64,000 nt of DNA, from NCBI GenBank assembly GCA_963575745.1, contig CAUYUJ010017977.1, forward strand, positions 62,501 to 126,500. The letters are read 5' to 3'. This stretch comes from Prorocentrum cordatum (lineage: Eukaryota; Sar; Dinophyceae; Prorocentrales; Prorocentraceae). A program made the position numbers and the translations under genes. Positions 2,887 through 11,585 of this stretch are shown piece after piece. The notes beneath the pieces are model-generated. The model made no database searches, was not told the origin of the DNA, and saw only the letters and a list, made by a program, of their open reading frames with translations. How positions within the stretch are numbered: the first letter of the stretch is position 1; each line of letters begins with the position of its first letter.

Positions 2887-3113
2887 GTGAAGGAGGAGGA
2901 AGAGGAGGAGGACAACGAGGAGGGGATGAGAAGAAGAAAGACAAGGAGGAGGAGGAAGAGGAGGAGCTGGAAGAGGAGGAGGAGGAGGAGGGGAAGGAGG
3001 AGGAGGAGGAGGAGTAGGAGTAGGAGGAGGAGGAGGAGGAGGAGGAAGGAGGAGGAGAGGAAGGAAGGATGGAGGAGGAGGAATGGGATAGGGAGGAGGA
3101 GGAGGAGGGGATG
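2887..3113. repeat. (GGA)n tract, target of the LINE insertion
   Basis: A purine-only GGA/GAA microsatellite. Its last 15 bases (3099-3113) are duplicated at 9334-9348, on the other side of the retrotransposon. The poly-S/poly-L minus-strand frames here are repeat artefacts. Confidence 0.85.
3099..3113. repeat. Target-site duplication, left copy
   Basis: GAGGAGGAGGGGATG, identical to 9334-9348 and immediately before the spliced leader. If the first T of the leader (3114) belongs to the target, the duplication is 16 bp, because 9349 is also T. Confidence 0.75.
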
Positions 3114-3135
3114 TCCGTAGCCATTTTGGCTCAAG
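3114..3135 (+). other. Dinoflagellate spliced leader sequence (DinoSL), genomic copy
   Basis: All 22 bases match the known DinoSL: T, then CCGTAGCCATTTTGG, then CTCAAG. In dinoflagellates this leader is added to mRNA 5' ends by trans-splicing. A genomic copy at the start of a transposon, with no SL-RNA gene around it, therefore means that a trans-spliced mRNA was reverse transcribed and inserted. Confidence 0.95.
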
Positions 3136-3155
3136 TCCGTAGTGTTTTGGCACAG
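3136..3155 (+). other. Degenerate second spliced-leader relict
   Basis: TCCGTAGTGTTTTGGCACAG follows the perfect leader directly. It keeps TCCGTAG and TTTTGGC of the DinoSL but has lost one base and changed others between and after them. Tandem relict leaders are expected when a retroposed, already trans-spliced gene is transcribed and trans-spliced again. Confidence 0.75.
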
Positions 3156-3282
3156 GACCTGGCCTTCCTGGTGCGGGGGAGTGACGGCCCCCGAAAGTCA
3201 CGCCTCGTCACCTGGCTCGGACGAGGAGTTTCGGCGTTTCTCGCAGTTTCGGCCCGCGAGGGTTTCTTCACGCGAGGGGCAT

Positions 3283-4296
3283 ATGAGCAATGATGGACGC
3301 ACAGTTCTCAAGGGGCCCAGAACCCCACACTGGGGCTGTGGACAGTGCGGGCGGGCTTCCAATTGGGCCTCACGGATTCAGTGCGCCTGTGGAGCTACCG
3401 CCCCGCGAACGATTGTGGACAAAGCGAAAGTCGCGGACAAGGCTGCCAGTGGGAATGCAGGTGGAGGCGGGAAGGGCCAGCCACCTGGTCCGTGGGCCGC
3501 CAAGTTCGAGGCTCAAGCCAAGCAGATTGCAGCACTTACTTCGAAGCTCGACAAGTTGGGCAAGCTGGCCAAGCATGGACCCTCTCCGTCGGGTGGGAGC
3601 CTGCAGTCGGGCCCGAAGGACGGCGATCCGAAGGAGGATGAGGCTGAGCAGTGTCGGGAACGGATCGAGATGCTGTGCCAGACGATTCAGAACCTGGACG
3701 GGGATCGCGATAAGGAGTGCATCGAGGAGCTGCAAGCCAAGGTCAAGGAGACTCGCGAGCAGCTCCAGCGGCTCAAACCCCAGATCACCCAGCACACCAA
3801 TGCGGGGCACCTGTTGGCGGAGCTGGAGCGCAAGCGGATGGCCGCCTTGCAGAAGAAAAAGGAGCAGGAGGAACTCATTACGGCTGCGCAGTTGGAGATT
3901 GGCAAGCAGGACGCGGCTGTTGCGAAGTTCGATGTGGAGATCGTGGAGGCCAAGCGGGCGCTGGCGAGCACGATTCCCGACGACGTTTTCTTCGACTGCG
4001 ACGAGACAGACTTCGTGGATGACCAAGAAGTCAGGGACATGTTCGCGTCGGCGGCCTGGAAGAGGTACCATGACAAGGTCAAGGAGAAGGGAGGCCTCCG
4101 AGCTCGGGCGCCTGCTTCAGCTGCTCCTCCTGGCGGTGGTGGTGCTGCAGCCGCTGCTGAACGCGAGGACGCTGATGCAGGAGAAGAACCTGACGACAAG
4201 GACGTGGAGACCCTGTGGCAGGCAACAAAGGGGGAGAAGCGGAACTTGCTGGAGCAGCTGCGCGCCATGGGATACAAGCGACCCAAGCGAGGGTGA
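3283..4296 (+). CDS. LINE ORF1: zinc-finger, coiled-coil RNA-binding protein
   Basis: 337 codons from ATG 3283 to TGA 4296. The frame is also open upstream to 3142, but 3283 begins the recognisable protein. The N-terminus has a RanBP2-like finger (WGCGQCG ... NWASRIQCAC), with the last Cys pair one residue closer than the usual W-x-C-x2-C ... N-x6-C-x2-C pattern. A Gly/Pro-rich linker follows. The middle is strongly charged coiled coil (from about EDEAEQCRERIEML to VEIVEAKRALAS), and the tail is an Ala/Gly-rich linker with acidic and basic patches. ORF1 proteins of LINEs bind the element RNA and form trimers or multimers; that role is inferred here from position and architecture. The endonuclease ORF starts 25 bases after the stop in another frame. 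The frame is intact, with no sign of decay. Confidence 0.75.
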   Translation: MSNDGRTVLKGPRTPHWGCGQCGRASNWASRIQCACGATAPRTIVDKAKVADKAASGNAGGGGKGQPPGPWAAKFEAQAKQIAALTSKLDKLGKLAKHGPSPSGGSLQSGPKDGDPKEDEAEQCRERIEMLCQTIQNLDGDRDKECIEELQAKVKETREQLQRLKPQITQHTNAGHLLAELERKRMAALQKKKEQEELITAAQLEIGKQDAAVAKFDVEIVEAKRALASTIPDDVFFDCDETDFVDDQEVRDMFASAAWKRYHDKVKEKGGLRARAPASAAPPGGGGAAAAAEREDADAGEEPDDKDVETLWQATKGEKRNLLEQLRAMGYKRPKRG

Positions 4297-4321
4297 CGGC
4301 AGTTGCAGGTCAGATGTGAAG

Positions 4322-5512
4322 ATGTCAAAGGAGGAGCCCGTGTTTCGGTTCTACTTCGCCAACATCACCAGTTACGGGGACAAGGCCAAGGACCAGATCA
4401 GAACCTGGTCTAAGGGGACGTGGCTCGAGGAGAGTGGGCCGCACCTAGTCGGTTTCGTGGAGCACCACATGATGGGGCCGAAGCTCACTGAGGCGAAGAA
4501 GGGGCTCCGCAGACAGGGATGGCGGGGAGACTTCGTTCGTGCCCAGCCTACGATCAATGGTGGGCGCCAGGGGCACGGAGGCGTAGCAGTGTTCAGCCGT
4601 CCTCACTTGCACACCACGGTGCCAACGACAGAGGAGAAGCTTTTGTTTCCAGATGTGCAGCCGCCGCTGCCGAGTCAATGGGCAGTGCAGTGGGTGAGGT
4701 TCCGCTCGGTAGATATTGCGTTCGTGACAGCCTATTTCGTGGTGGGAGTGGGCCTAGCTGAGCCCAACCTCTCCTTGTTGACGGAAATTGGTCAGTACCT
4801 TCGGCTCAAGGGTTCGCCGTTCGTGATCATGGCAGATTGGAACATGACGCTGGATGAGGTGGGGCCATCAGGTTTCGACACGTACGTTGGAGGCGAATGG
4901 ATCACCGCGGGGCCCCACCCGAATGGCGAGAGAGTGATAGATTACATGTGTATTTCAGATTCGTTGCGCTATGCTGTGAATATCTCATGGGATGATGCAT
5001 CGCCCTGGGCAGCGCCGCATCATGGGATCAAGGGTGTCCTCGCCAAGTCGGCTTTCAACCTGCAGCAGAGGGTGGCCCTGGCGCCGATTCCCATCACGCC
5101 TGGCATGCATGGCCCAGACCTCCCGTGGGAGCACTTCTGCACGACAGCTGCAGCGGACGCTGAAGAGGGCATGGCGAAGCCAGGGATGCAGGAGCTCGCG
5201 GGACGAGAGAGGGAGGTGAGCATGAGCTACATGACCTTCGCGCTGGTGGCGGAGGCTCTGCTGCTGAACAGGGAGGTGGGGACGGCGGGCCGCTTCGCAT
5301 CCACCAAGCGCGGCTTCAAGGTTGAGGTCCAGGAGGTCCAGGTCGTCCCCCCGAAACCGAAGGGATGGGTGGCCCAAACCTCGGGTGTCGCCAAGTGGGG
5401 GGCCCTTGATGGCCGCCTGCTTGAGTGTGTGGGCATGGCCCAGAAGAGAAGGGCCTTCCACCTCAGACGGCAAAGGATGGGACAGCCTGCAGAGACACGT
5501 GAGCAGATGTAG
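4322..5512 (+). CDS. LINE ORF2, AP-type endonuclease domain
   Basis: An open frame of about 396 codons from ATG 4322 to TAG 5512. Endonuclease/exonuclease/phosphatase (EEP) family motifs appear in order: VGFVEHHM with the metal-binding Glu, GGVAVFSRPH, VIMADWNMTL (D-x-N), ERVIDYMCIS and SPWAAPHHGI (catalytic His region). In LINEs this domain nicks the target DNA to prime reverse transcription. Past about residue 250 the sequence is a helical linker leading to the RT. The RT continues in the next frame, and the two frames overlap at 5322-5512. Peptide continuity suggests the switch is near 5465-5490, consistent with one extra base, two missing bases, or a programmed +1 shift. Confidence 0.85.
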   Translation: MSKEEPVFRFYFANITSYGDKAKDQIRTWSKGTWLEESGPHLVGFVEHHMMGPKLTEAKKGLRRQGWRGDFVRAQPTINGGRQGHGGVAVFSRPHLHTTVPTTEEKLLFPDVQPPLPSQWAVQWVRFRSVDIAFVTAYFVVGVGLAEPNLSLLTEIGQYLRLKGSPFVIMADWNMTLDEVGPSGFDTYVGGEWITAGPHPNGERVIDYMCISDSLRYAVNISWDDASPWAAPHHGIKGVLAKSAFNLQQRVALAPIPITPGMHGPDLPWEHFCTTAAADAEEGMAKPGMQELAGREREVSMSYMTFALVAEALLLNREVGTAGRFASTKRGFKVEVQEVQVVPPKPKGWVAQTSGVAKWGALDGRLLECVGMAQKRRAFHLRRQRMGQPAETREQM

Positions 5513-8056
5513 GAACCTCACCCCTGTTTTGCCAGAGGAGGCGGAGAAACGCTTCCTGGACAAGCTTGATGGTGCTCAGTTTCACAACTACGAGAGCCTC
5601 CAGAGGCTTCAGCGGTTGGCCAAGGAGTGCCGACACGTCGGTTTGAGGATCGAACGTTTCCACGGGCGTGAGGCCTCCAAAGGTTTTAAGCAGTGGGTAG
5701 TCGACAGTTTGAAGAAAGGGGGAGGGGCTCTCCACCGTTGGACCAAAACGTGGGGAGAACCGACACCGACCCTTGCCCCAGCGTATGGCCCTGAGGGGGA
5801 CCCCATTGTTGACCCCCTGGGGGTGGTGGCGGCTAAGGCCGCTGGTTGGGAGGCGCTGTGGTGCCCGAAGGACGGTGCCCAGGGGCCCCCTCAGGACCAG
5901 GACTGGTGGCCACATTTCCAGGCATGTGCCCGCGAAGCGCGCGATGAACTTCCGATGCTTGACTTGGCCGATCTGGAGGCCGCACTTTCCAGTTTCAGAT
6001 CTGTGATCGGGATGGGCCTCGATGGTCAGAACCCGAAGAACTGGAGCCAGCTCCCACCAGCTGGTCGTAGGCAATTGTTGGATGTGCTGCACCAGGTCGA
6101 AGATGCGATGATCTGGCCAGGCCAGGTGCGTGATAATGTTGTGCAGTTGTTGCACAAATCTCCGACGGCAGATCGCCCAATCACCCTCGCACAAGGCCTT
6201 TATAGATGCTGGTCGGTGGCGAGGAGGAGGACGGTGGCGGTTTGGGTGGCGGGGGAGAGTGGGGCTCGCTTCTGGGATAAGGCCATCAGAGGGAGCTCAG
6301 CTTTAAGAGCAGCGATTTTACGTCAGTTGCAGCTAGAAGTTGCAACTCTCCAGGGTTTTTCGTGGGCCGAGATCCTGTGGGACCTGGAAAAGTTTTACGA
6401 TCATCTCCAGTGTTTTGAGATCTTTCGGCTTGGCCGAGCCACGGGCTACCCGATGTTCCACCTTTTCATGGCTATGCAAATTCATTTCGCCCCGCGGAGG
6501 GTACGAGCAGAGGACTGTCTCAGCGATGTAATCCAACCCTGGAGGGGTATCCTCGCGGGCTGCAACCAGTCCGTGGATGTGGCCAGGGTAGCACTGTTTG
6601 AAATTTTGCAGGATCTGCACGACTCTTTCAGACCCCTCCAGTTTGATTCTTGGGTGGACGACTGTTCGCAGCGGGTGGTTGGGCATACTAAGGAGGTGGT
6701 CTCGAAGAGTGTGCAGGTTGGTAGGAAGTTCTGGAGACTTTGTAGGCAAGGCGGCTTGCAGGTCTCGGCCAAGAGCACCCTCGTCAGCTGCCCTGCGCAC
6801 TTAGCTTCGGAAATCACTTCGGCGCTGGCGGTCCAGGGCCTCCATGTTCAGTCTTCCCAGGTGGCCAAGGACCTGGGAGTGGATGCCACGGCCGCCAGAC
6901 GCAGTGTTGCCACACAAAAGAAGCGAATTAATGCAGCCGCGGGCCGAGCTAAGATGATTAGGCAGGTGGTCAAAGTCGCTCCGAGGGCGCGAACCCTTGG
7001 GAGGTCTGGCTTCATTCCCCAAGCGACGTGGGGGCTGGAAGGTACAGGGCTGGCCCCCACGACGCTGATGCGCCTCCGTGCTCAGATTGCCGCGCTGTCT
7101 GGAGCACGCTACGAGGGTGGTTGTACCACGACGGCGATCAACCTGATGCTTGGGTCCGACCAGGACCCGCTAGTTTTTGGCAGGCTGCGTGTTTTCCGCA
7201 TGTGGTACGATCTGCTGCCCTCCATGTTGGAGCAATCTGCTCGCCCGCTGGCCCTTGCGTGGAAAAAGGCTTGGCAGCAGTTGAAGCACGTTAAGCGACG
7301 ATGGAGTCGCGTCAAAGGCCCGGTTTCTGCCGTCATTGCCTGTCTCCTAGATATAGACTGGACGGCGCCAGAGCCGTGGATGTGGATTTCGCCAGAGGAG
7401 CTGAGCTTTGATTTGAGGGATTGCGATCCCGAACGGCTCATTGATTTCGAGCTGGGAGGGTCTTTGGATGCCCAGATTTGGAGCAAGGCCTCTCAGCACC
7501 ACCTAGGGAAGGGACTCGAATTCAGTGCCGATTTTACGGTTCCTTTTCGCCACCTGAAGCGTTTGGAAGGACGAAACCAATGGGATAGAGCTGCCGTCCT
7601 GCGCATGGTTCTCACGGGCAGTCTTTGGCCAGCAGCGCGTAGATTCGGAGAGGGGTCTCGTCGCCCCCGACCCCCTGAGGAGCCTCCTGCTGCTAGTGCT
7701 GGTGCTGCCCCTCCCGCGTCCACCTCCGATCCACCTGCGCCCGACCCTGCCGCAGGGGTTTCGAGCGCCGCAGGACTCTTTCAGGAAGAGATGGACGTGG
7801 ATGAGCTTTTCGACCTTGAGGCCAGGCAGGAATTGCCGCCTGCCGCTGAGGAGGGGGATGAGGCGGAGGAGGTCAGGTCTTGGGCCACCCCCGTCTGCCC
7901 TCGTTGCGGCGATGCGTCGGAAACCACGTTCCATCAACTTTGGGCCTGCCCTTGTAATGTAGGAATCGAAGGGACCCACCCTGAGCTGCTTCAGCAAGCG
8001 GAAGCGGGGTGGGAAGAGTTTCCGTGTTTTTGGTTGAGAGGGCTACCGCCACTCAA
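5480..8056 (+). CDS. LINE ORF2, reverse transcriptase domain (5' part frame-disrupted)
   Basis: The frame is open from 5322 to 8108 and is credible as protein from about 5480. RT motifs are seen in order: a finger/palm region with NWSQLPP and TADRPITLAQGLYR, motif A as WDLEKFYDHL (Asp codon 6381), a motif-B-like GILAGCNQS stretch, motif C as DSWVDDCSQ (Asp pair 6657-6662, WVDD instead of the usual F/Y-ADD), then thumb-like sequence. Near the end is a Cys/His finger, CPRCG ... TTFHQLWACP, of the type often found after LINE RTs. The reading frame runs into a 146-bp tandem duplication and stops at 8108 before RNase H. Without the second copy the frame would be continuous with RNase H. Confidence 0.88.
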
Positions 8057-8203
8057 GATGCGTCGGAAACCACGTTCCATCAACTTTGGGCCTGCCCTTG
8101 TAATGTAGGAATCGAAGGGACCCACCCTGAGCTGCTTCAGCAAGCGGAAGCGGGGTGGGAAGAGTTTCCGTGTTTTTGGTTGAGAGGGCTACCGCCACTC
8201 AAG
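7911..8203. repeat. 146-bp tandem duplication disrupting ORF2
   Basis: 7911-8056 is repeated exactly at 8057-8202, and one more base (8203) also matches. Since 146 is not a multiple of three, the duplication moves RNase H out of the RT frame. I saw no mismatch between the copies, so the event is very recent or is an assembly artefact. Confidence 0.95.
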
Positions 8204-9274
8204 TGGACTAGCGGCCCCACGCTGGTCGATGTACAAAGCGATCCAGTTATATCCCCCAGTCTCGAGTCTGGGCCGATCGATTTGGAGGAGGGGGACGTCG
8301 TCGTCGGGACTGATGGGTCGGGGGGTGCTTACTCGTCGGAGCCCGGGCTGAGACGCTGTGGATGGGGTTTTTCCATCATCAGGGGACACAGTCAGCTGGG
8401 ATGGGGCCACGGGCCGCTCCCAGGGTATAAGCAGACAGTTCCGCTTGCCGAGTTGGAGGGAGTCATCCAGGCTCTGCGCCACACGAGGGGTACAGTTACT
8501 CTCGCGGTTGACTCTGCCATCACCATCCGTATTTTCCAGAGGGGAAGGAGCTACGTGCCCCCCGCCAATGTAGGCCCGTGGCGTAGGCTCTGGGCGGAGG
8601 TGGGCGATCGGCAGGTCGCCATGATCAAAGTTAAGAGCCACACCCGACCCGCCCCAGAGAGACCAGACGGCCCACCAGTTTTGTATTGGCTTGCCAATGG
8701 GGCTGCGGACGCGGCCGCGGAGGAAGGAGCCAGGAGGGCCCAGCTTCCAGGTCATATTGTCGCAGAGGTCTGCAGAATTGATGTGCTAACCCAGCAGGTG
8801 CAGGAGCATCTTGTGGCGGTGGCTTGTCACATAGCGGCGCGAGCGCCCGAGTTGTACGGTCCCAGCTCCAAGGCCGCGAGGGCGTCCGAGGCCAAGGCCA
8901 GGGGGCGCGAGCGGGTGCTCGAGGTTGAACGGGCGGCGTCGGTGTCGACCCATAGGGTCGTCTCCGACGCCAAAGGTGTCAGATGCGCGTTGTGCAACAC
9001 CCGCCCGACGGCTGAAAGGAGGAAGTTGGAGTGGCTTGCATCCCCCTGCGCCAGGGTCCCGCACGGCATCGACCCATCGCACAAGTTGAGCTTCTGCCAA
9101 GGGGTCTTCTGGTGCCAGGTTTGCGGGGCGACTGGGTCGCGGGGGAAATTCATTAAGTTGGGGGGAGAGTGCCGACCCGATCGCGTGGGCGAATGGGGGA
9201 AGCGCATGTTGAAGTACTTGAATGAAGGGAAACCCCCCCCTGGGCTAAAGGCGTGGCCTGAACCCAATCCTTAA
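8057..9274 (+). CDS. LINE ORF2, RNase H and C-terminal Cys-rich domain
   Basis: An open frame to TAA 9274. It repeats the Cys/His finger and then carries an RNase HI domain: GTDGSGGAY (Asp 8312), LAELEGV (Glu 8450), LAVDSAITI (Asp 8510), KVKSHTRPAP and LANGAADAAAEEG with the last acidic residue. RNase H removes the RNA strand of the hybrid during insertion. After it come a basic linker and a Cys-rich end (CALCNTRP ... FWCQVCGATG). The domain is intact but out of frame with the RT because of the 146-bp duplication. The start shown is the second repeat copy, since no natural start exists. Confidence 0.88.
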   Translation, partial: DASETTFHQLWACPCNVGIEGTHPELLQQAEAGWEEFPCFWLRGLPPLKWTSGPTLVDVQSDPVISPSLESGPIDLEEGDVVVGTDGSGGAYSSEPGLRRCGWGFSIIRGHSQLGWGHGPLPGYKQTVPLAELEGVIQALRHTRGTVTLAVDSAITIRIFQRGRSYVPPANVGPWRRLWAEVGDRQVAMIKVKSHTRPAPERPDGPPVLYWLANGAADAAAEEGARRAQLPGHIVAEVCRIDVLTQQVQEHLVAVACHIAARAPELYGPSSKAARASEAKARGRERVLEVERAASVSTHRVVSDAKGVRCALCNTRPTAERRKLEWLASPCARVPHGIDPSHKLSFCQGVFWCQVCGATGSRGKFIKLGGECRPDRVGEWGKRMLKYLNEGKPPPGLKAWPEPNP

Positions 9275-9333
9275 GTTTTGGTCTCGGCGTGCCCGCTTAT
9301 GGGATTTCTCGCTGCAGCGCTGTATTGGTATTA

Positions 9334-9348
9334 GAGGAGGAGGGGATG
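9334..9348. repeat. Target-site duplication, right copy
   Basis: GAGGAGGAGGGGATG, identical to 3099-3113, directly after the 3' end of the LINE (ending GTATTGGTATTA). Confidence 0.75.
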
Positions 9349-10914: not shown

Positions 10915-11585
10915 ATGGGGTGTGCAGGGCGCCCCCGGGAGCGTCCGAAGCGTCCTGGAGGGCCCCTGGGACCACCAGGAACAGTTCGAGACCGCCCAAG
11001 ACGGCCCGCGAGCGCTCCAAGACGCGCATAGATAGCCTCAGGAATGGCCAGGAAGGCCCGAAGGCGTTCCAAGAGAGCTCCATGAGGCCCCGAAGGCATC
11101 CCAAGAGGCCTCCCAAGAGAGCCCCGACAAGCCAACACCGTTGATTTTTATTGTTTTTTTCCAAGGTTTTTGGCCTTCTCGCTTTTTCGGGGTTCCGACG
11201 CTCCAAGGCCGTCCAAGAGTCTCCCAAAACCGCTCCAAGACGGCCGAAGAGGCCCCCAAGACCGCCCCAAGACGGCCCAAGAGACCCCCAAAATCGTCCC
11301 AAGACGGCCCAGGAGAGCCCCAAGATGGCCCAGGAGCCGCCCAAGACGGTTCCAGGAGAGCCCCGACAGGGCTTCAAGACTGCCTAAGCGAGCCCAGCGG
11401 TCCCCAAGAGGGCCCCGCGAGGCCCCAAGAGGCCCCAAAGAGGCCCCCAAGAGCCTCCCCGAAGGCCCCCAGAGGCCCCCAAGATGCCCCAAAATGGCCC
11501 TGAGCGCGCCCCAAGACGCCTCCAGGAGAGCCCCACAGGCCTCCGAGAGGCCCCAAAGAGGCCCACTGGAGGCCCTCAGGAGGTC
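10915..11585. repeat. CCCAAGA(C/G)GGCC satellite
   Basis: A degenerate tandem array with a 10-12 bp unit of the form CCCAAGACGGCC. It keeps long frames open (Pro/Lys/Arg/Gln-rich on +, Gly/Leu-rich on -). I do not accept these as genes because the peptide changes with each small indel. The same satellite occurs in this orientation at 11920-15080 and 53090-53670, and inverted at 16690-16925, 44760-45330, 45590-45760 and 47470-47720. Confidence 0.85.

Follow-up and report, generated by a model that had tools for sequence, protein, structure and literature searches.

A LINE of Prorocentrum cordatum whose relict-bearing copies mostly begin with the host spliced leader, probably as products of its trans-spliced mRNA

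Genomic copies of the dinoflagellate spliced leader (DinoSL) have been explained by the retrogene model of Slamovits and Keeling, in which a genomic leader with a relict leader marks a reverse-transcribed trans-spliced mRNA (passages of PMC3229502 and PMC6050394). The relicts are described as being cut after nucleotide 7 at an AG (after TCCGTAG) and as accumulating (passages of PMC3229502). Here we describe a long interspersed nuclear element (LINE) at positions 3114-9333 of a 64,000-nt stretch of the Prorocentrum cordatum genome (contig CAUYUJ010017977.1, 62,501 to 126,500, forward strand; hereafter the window). Like these retrogenes, the window LINE has a genomic leader followed by a relict. 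However, the relict of its family usually keeps TCCG and is single, the cargo is a reverse transcriptase gene, and the copies have target duplications and GGA targets. The classical 15-nt relict of the retrogenes occurs in other families of this genome.

The trypanosomatid ingi/L1Tc elements likewise are LINEs in a protist that trans-splices, and different elements there have a short 5' sequence (Pr77) in common (passages of PMC8190864). Pr77 is described there as a promoter plus a hepatitis delta virus (HDV)-like ribozyme with unspliced transcripts, whereas the window LINE starts with a host leader. Unlike for the Pr77 elements, a known RNA or HDV-like ribozyme at its 5' end was rejected, since an Rfam scan of 3050-3500 gave nothing up to E 5. 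Like microsatellite-targeting retrotransposons without long terminal repeats (LTRs), the window LINE is inserted in a simple repeat, but the elements in the abstract of PMC4640811 have restriction-like endonucleases, while here an APE-type endonuclease is combined with a leader. In Hydra, about 30% of transposon Iso-Seq reads bear a leader; the resemblance lies in leader-bearing transposon transcripts, and the passages of PMC12220107 are silent on genomic copies that start with one. The Symbiodinium elements SymbioLINE-Dnmt are also dinoflagellate LINEs with an endonuclease and a reverse transcriptase, but unlike the window LINE they have a methyltransferase open reading frame (ORF) upstream (passages of PMC5890265). 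The terms 'spliced leader' and 'splice leader' are absent from the main text of PMC5890265. Relict leaders, retrogenes, microsatellite-targeting LINEs and the leader-bearing transposon transcripts of Hydra are already known. No description of LINEs in several families whose genomic copies start with the host leader, show target duplications and prefer GGA/TCC was found in the parts of the open-licence PMC literature that were searched.

Judged from its sequence, the window LINE is probably an APE-type LINE that copied its own host-trans-spliced mRNA to the first base into a GGA/TCC repeat, leaving the leader and a target-site duplication. The 5' end, the 3' end and the target were located as follows.

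2891-3108, plus strand: GGA microsatellite, the insertion target (tandem AGG, 72 copies)
3099-3113, plus strand: 5' copy of the target-site duplication, gaggaggaggggatg; downstream, the longest stretch matching this flank lies at the 3' end of the element
3114-9333, plus strand: LINE element, 6220 bp, the window copy, bounded by the target-site duplication
3114-3135, plus strand: perfect 22-nt DinoSL, TCCGTAGCCATTTTGGCTCAAG, the first bases of the element
3136-3156, plus strand: degenerate older leader (relict), TCCGTAGTGTTTTGGCACAGG, abutting the DinoSL and common to sister copies
9319-9333, plus strand: 3' terminus, GCTGTATTGGTATTA, with no poly(A) here
9334-9348, plus strand: 3' copy of the target-site duplication, gaggaggaggggatg

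The initial annotation had placed a perfect 22-nt DinoSL at the start of the element and a 15-bp duplication at 3099-3113 and 9334-9348, and both were found there. The 21-mer CCGTAG...CAAG had 0 mismatches and was the sole match in the window at up to 3 mismatches, with 0.01 expected from shuffles. The relict, which was absent from that annotation, outscored 6000 of 6000 random 22-mers of the window.

Sister copies were searched in the 4.13-Gb assembly of 21,875 contigs. A search anchored on the relict and blind to DinoSL, run to avoid selecting on the leader, gave 43 copies. The exact 21-nt leader lay directly upstream of the relict in 28 of them and a near-match leader (up to 3 edits) in 12, including L087, which has a leader plus a 15-nt relict. 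Of the other three, L086 had a mutated 15-nt relict behind its leader, the leader of L082 carried 5 changes, and L077 lacked a leader. Another search used the first 900 bp of the element, leader included, and 40 of 385 candidates were scored. Eight of the nine best relatives, counting the window, had matches starting at query base 1 or 2 and thus in the leader. Another 14 of the 40 matched just the first 117-128 query bases. By eye, the DNA upstream of the leader in the fetched 5' ends was either a GGA tract, the CCTCTTGGGG minisatellite or else unrelated sequence. Homologous non-leader sequence further upstream, which would have contradicted the initial annotation, was seen in none of these ends. 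Several results weigh against a leader start as the general rule. The match on C5302 began at query base 57, inside a GGA tract and without a leader, and L077 had no leader among the relict-bearing copies. In addition, 17 of the 40 scored relatives matched only from position 139 or later. The 43 copies also represent only about 41 independent loci, since C15711 has the same locus as the window and the flanks of L088 and L089 are identical. For the copies on C26, C18061 and C6488, no 5' end was found at the distance where it was expected; the sequence of C18061 is N there.

The copies were inserted in different places but in similar DNA. A GGA tract lay upstream in 32 of the 43 copies (29 by script; L080, L086 and L087 by eye) and the CCTCTTGGGG minisatellite in 9 (by eye), with L082 and L092 in neither. 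An upstream tract in TCC orientation was found in 0 of 43. The orientation in GGA tracts was single. The idea that a TCC tract always supplies a polypyrimidine stretch fails for the window family, which sits in GGA orientation. The 3' terminus was near-constant: 13 of the 14 loci whose 3' ends were read ended in GCTGTATTGGTATTA or a close form. Their 3' junctions continued with GAG at 12 loci and with GGA-rich DNA at 13, C16484 being the exception. Most copies lay in one simple repeat, as is expected of microsatellite targeting. A folded 3' end was considered and rejected, since the last 60 and 80 nt folded no better than shuffles (z about +1.2). A CCCCAAGAGG-type minisatellite at 11057-11583 of the window is similar to the one hosting nine sister copies.

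The tract preference extended to leaders of the whole genome. The assembly held 14,218 exact leaders (7201 forward, 7017 reverse), and the reversed control gave 0. A strict TCC/GGA tract ended within 12 nt upstream at 19 of the first 28 sites listed (13 TCC, 6 GGA), compared to 1.8% of background positions. Within 8 nt upstream of the 7017 reverse-strand leaders, TCCTCC was found 2379 times (34%), GGAGGA 856 times (12%) and the control GCAGCA 22 times (0.3%). The forward-strand counts were 5374, 1550 and 33, with some sites listed repeatedly. The reverse counts were preferred, as the reverse rows listed (first rows only) had one row per site. Leader sites outside the window family were also found in CAT, TA or no tract. 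On the minus strand of L001, an AT-rich IMG/VR contig, two exact dinoflagellate leaders (2746-2766 and 2893-2913) were seen 147 bp apart.

The duplication in the window was then compared with other flanks. T3114 is the same as T9349, so that the match extends to 16 bp (15 bp plus an ambiguous T) and the first base of the leader can be assigned to either side. The next-best downstream match of the 5' flank was 9 bp (plus strand, to the window end), and flanks of six other GGA-class loci matched 7-14 bp in the same 10-kb stretch downstream of the window element. Because the own flank exceeds both, chance similarity of GGA repeats, a possibility raised in the initial annotation, was excluded as the source of the duplication. 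An independent copy on C4446 had a 17-bp duplication, GAGGACGAGGAATCCGA, with non-repeat letters, following an A8 tail in place of the usual terminus. Among 20 leader sites read to 10 kb, which come from the first contigs listed and are not a random draw, the own flank gave the longest match in seven (L012, L019, L021, L023, L025, L027, L029), tied in two (L024, L028) and was not the longest in the other 11. Measurable duplications were 12-17 bp long. Two points count against the proposed reading. In pure TCC/GGA tracts foreign flanks matched equally well, and duplications there are non-diagnostic. The other point is a difference between two sequences of one locus: the 120 nt of 3' flank fetched for C15711 and the window are identical, yet L030 (C15711:46934-47133) and window 3054-3113 differ directly before the leader (GCGGCGGATTTTTTTG and GGAGGGGATG, respectively). 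L027:1468-9881 is a leader-headed 8.4-kb stretch with a 12-bp duplication, ATCCCCACTAGC, outside microsatellites; no domain was recognised in the two ORFs scanned.

The GGA tract could instead be the element's own 5' part and not its target, with the duplication arising from chance repeat similarity. All 20 fetched 5' ends of the relatives found with the 900-bp query lay in or beside GGA-rich DNA, as this would predict. However, GGA-rich DNA also followed the 3' end at 13 of 14 loci, 11 of the 43 copies lay outside GGA tracts, the duplications contain non-repeat letters, and other leader sites lie in TCC, CAT, TA or no tract. We regard the chance of this explanation as close to negligible.

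The coding content of the element was that of a LINE, with the following features.

3114-3236, plus strand: 5' module including the leader, with 80% identity to L019 over about 123 nt; L019 is otherwise a different LINE
3283-4296, plus strand: ORF1, 337 aa, with a Cys-rich N-terminal stretch (by eye)
4322-5512, plus strand: ORF with APE-type endonuclease (Exo_endo_phos PF03372, E 5.7e-8, above cut-off)
5454-8108, plus strand: reverse transcriptase frame, with WVDD at 6651; homology starts at 5595, and the frame differs from that of the endonuclease
7985-9274, plus strand: RNase H frame (RNase_H PF00075, E 0.0012, below the curated cut-off)
7911-8203, plus strand: exact 146-bp tandem duplication, which breaks the frame

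ORF1 had no Pfam family above cut-off. The endonuclease ORF was homologous to P0002 across 4343-5455. The reverse transcriptase region gave no Pfam match of its own, and its frame was 26% identical to P0003 (with PF00078) over 559 columns. We take WVDD at 6651 to be motif C of the reverse transcriptase. The RNase H frame had 42% identity to P0001 over 8060-9262. No close relatives of the reverse transcriptase were found in viral contigs. A 5' module of about 75-120 nt including the leader was common to L007, L019, L022 and window 3114-3236, with further DNA aligned little or not at all; in this it is reminiscent of the common 5' sequence of the trypanosomatid elements. The G+C content of the window was 0.52-0.72 per 4 kb.

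The initial annotation had called this an otherwise full-length coding element. The ORF1, endonuclease, reverse transcriptase and RNase H frames were indeed present, but the reading frame was lost between 5455 and 5595 and was broken again by the 146-bp duplication. The window copy is therefore full length, yet not intact. By its end coordinates, the C15711 copy, whose 3' flank is the same, is 6074 bp long, that is, 6220 minus 146. Judged by length, the 146-bp duplication is absent from this copy of the same locus, and it is a recent event or an assembly artefact.

Self-comparison of the window (over 80 bp, E up to 1e-10) gave just the 146-bp duplication within the element, with no LTRs and no further copies of the element. 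The APE endonuclease, the reverse transcriptase, the absence of LTRs and the target-site duplications of variable length are those of an APE-type LINE. A leader and relict lay directly upstream, as in DinoSL retrogenes, but the cargo was not a copy of a host gene, as endonuclease, reverse transcriptase and a putative RNase H are encoded. The insertion was presumably carried out by these enzymes of the element itself. Alternatively, enzymes of LTR elements (Ty1/copia) could have made a leader-tagged retrocopy, with the LINE as a passive template. A review deems LTR elements the likelier source of dinoflagellate retroposition (passages of PMC6050394). However, the 16-17 bp duplications, the preferred 3' junction and the microsatellite targets fit target-primed reverse transcription, and the element itself encodes an endonuclease and a reverse transcriptase, which makes such a passive origin highly unlikely.

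Other leader-headed stretches were also LINE-like. LINE homology was found in 14 of the 20 leader-led stretches, strong in 11 (L010, L011, L012, L014, L018, L019, L020, L023, L025, L028, L029) and weak in three (L015, L016, L017), where strong meant E 1e-5 or better by Pfam or tblastn within the stretch. L013, L021, L022, L026 and L027 gave no LINE homology by tblastn or in the two ORFs scanned in each, and in L024 the homology lay in a second element, itself with a leader-like start. Two leader-headed LINEs had a single open frame: L029:739-8478 (minus strand, 2580 aa, endonuclease and reverse transcriptase) and L020:1480-9837 (plus strand, 2786 aa, endonuclease, reverse transcriptase and RNase H), with some domains below the Pfam cut-off. 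They are apparently young members of other families. L006 with L018, and L002, L008, L010, L024 and L028, were grouped by eye as further families with an ATG at or soon after the leader and TCC orientation. Because this orientation is opposite to that of the window family, strand choice seems to be family-specific.

The leader would have been acquired by trans-splicing, because its junction with the element is precise and occurs in variants. The junction forms were leader/TCCG, leader plus 1 nt/TCCG, leader/TGTTTT, leader/CTGTTTT and leader plus 15-nt relict/TCCG. By locus, L031, L034 and L036 had an extra G or A, L035 and L007 lacked the 5' half of the relict, and L086 and L087 had an extra 15-nt relict. 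The initial annotation had proposed a full-length copy of a trans-spliced LINE mRNA as the origin. This was well supported, as copies at different sites have the leader at the 5' end, with a variable junction after it. Alternatively, reverse transcription could have switched templates to free spliced leader RNA and so added the leader, comparable to the published LINE-1 chimeras with other RNAs (abstract of PMC13174262). In that case spliced leader intron sequence would be expected between leader and element, but in the fetched 5' ends the leader ended in CTCAAG, followed by no more than 1 extra nt or by a relict of the leader. We give such a switch very little credence.

The leader looks more likely to be renewed in each cycle than inherited, judging from its variation. 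In a comparison of 22 rows, pairwise identity was 0.967 for the leader, 0.858 for the relict and 0.870 for the next 37 nt, and the canonical leader was present in 16 rows. In 37 rows, after six of the 43 were dropped (L030, L031, L077, L086, L087, L089), every leader variant occurred in 1-3 copies, while minor letters at the three variable sites of the relict occurred in 6, 9 and 18. In 8 hand-picked rows, pairwise differences were 2.4% in the leader and 9.7% in its neighbours. These comparisons are open to several objections. L007, L019 and the window entered the 22 rows via an exact leader, the query for the other rows also held the leader, and the choice of the 8 rows was our own. Variable columns were more frequent in the leader (9 of 21) than in the relict (3 of 26, where the search pattern permitted only 4), and two leader columns had a variant common to 3 copies. 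The purity of the leader could also be explained by selection on a leader inherited as DNA. Finally, the classical 15-nt relict accumulates in other families: among 28 listed sites, L005, L010, L015 and L017 exactly fit a relict cut after nucleotide 7, and L009, L021 and L023 nearly fit. Leader exchange is therefore not general.

The initial annotation had suggested that the leader is inherited as the element's own 5' end. It would then be a fixed part of the DNA, transcribed from its first base and passed on without re-splicing. As expected of inheritance, a single outer leader precedes the same relict in most copies, and the 5' module of about 120 nt is common to a different LINE. However, the leader varied less among copies than the neighbouring sequence, its variants were rare, and the junction variants (extra G or A, missing 5' half of the relict, extra 15-nt relict) resemble splice-site choice. 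Inheritance thus appears rather unlikely, and renewal fits these observations better.

In the window family the relict is usually whole, keeps TCCG and stays single; therefore the acceptor would be the CAAG that ends the older genomic leader. In the proposed cycle, a copy within a GGA or TCC tract would be transcribed, and the host would join spliced leader RNA near the start of the copy. With the terminal CAAG of the genomic leader as the next 3' splice acceptor, the leader would be replaced in each cycle, and the spliced mRNA of the window family would begin with the leader directly followed by TCCGTAGTGTTTTGG. The LINE protein would nick a GGA/TCC repeat, and the mRNA would be reverse-transcribed to its very first base, so that the leader becomes the 5' end of the DNA and a target-site duplication forms. 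Use of CAAG would hold the number of leaders nearly constant while the outer leader stays fresh. We tentatively propose that the element has such a self-renewing, host-borrowed 5' end and that GGA/TCC-targeting LINE machinery may drive mass DinoSL retroposition in this dinoflagellate, although this fuller proposal may well prove wrong.

These results bear on the enzyme that turns dinoflagellate mRNAs back into genes, for which the review leans to LTR elements (passages of PMC6050394). A LINE answer is directly testable because the leader is found at the 5' ends of LINEs themselves, together with target duplications. Leader-based counts of retrogenes may count transposons, because 14 of the 20 leaders read at length head LINE-like sequence and the genome holds 14,218. 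In the window LINE, host trans-splicing appears to supply the start of a transposon. If this is true, trans-splicing would mark the element's first base in any read-through transcript, as internal promoters and HDV-like ribozymes serve other LINEs.

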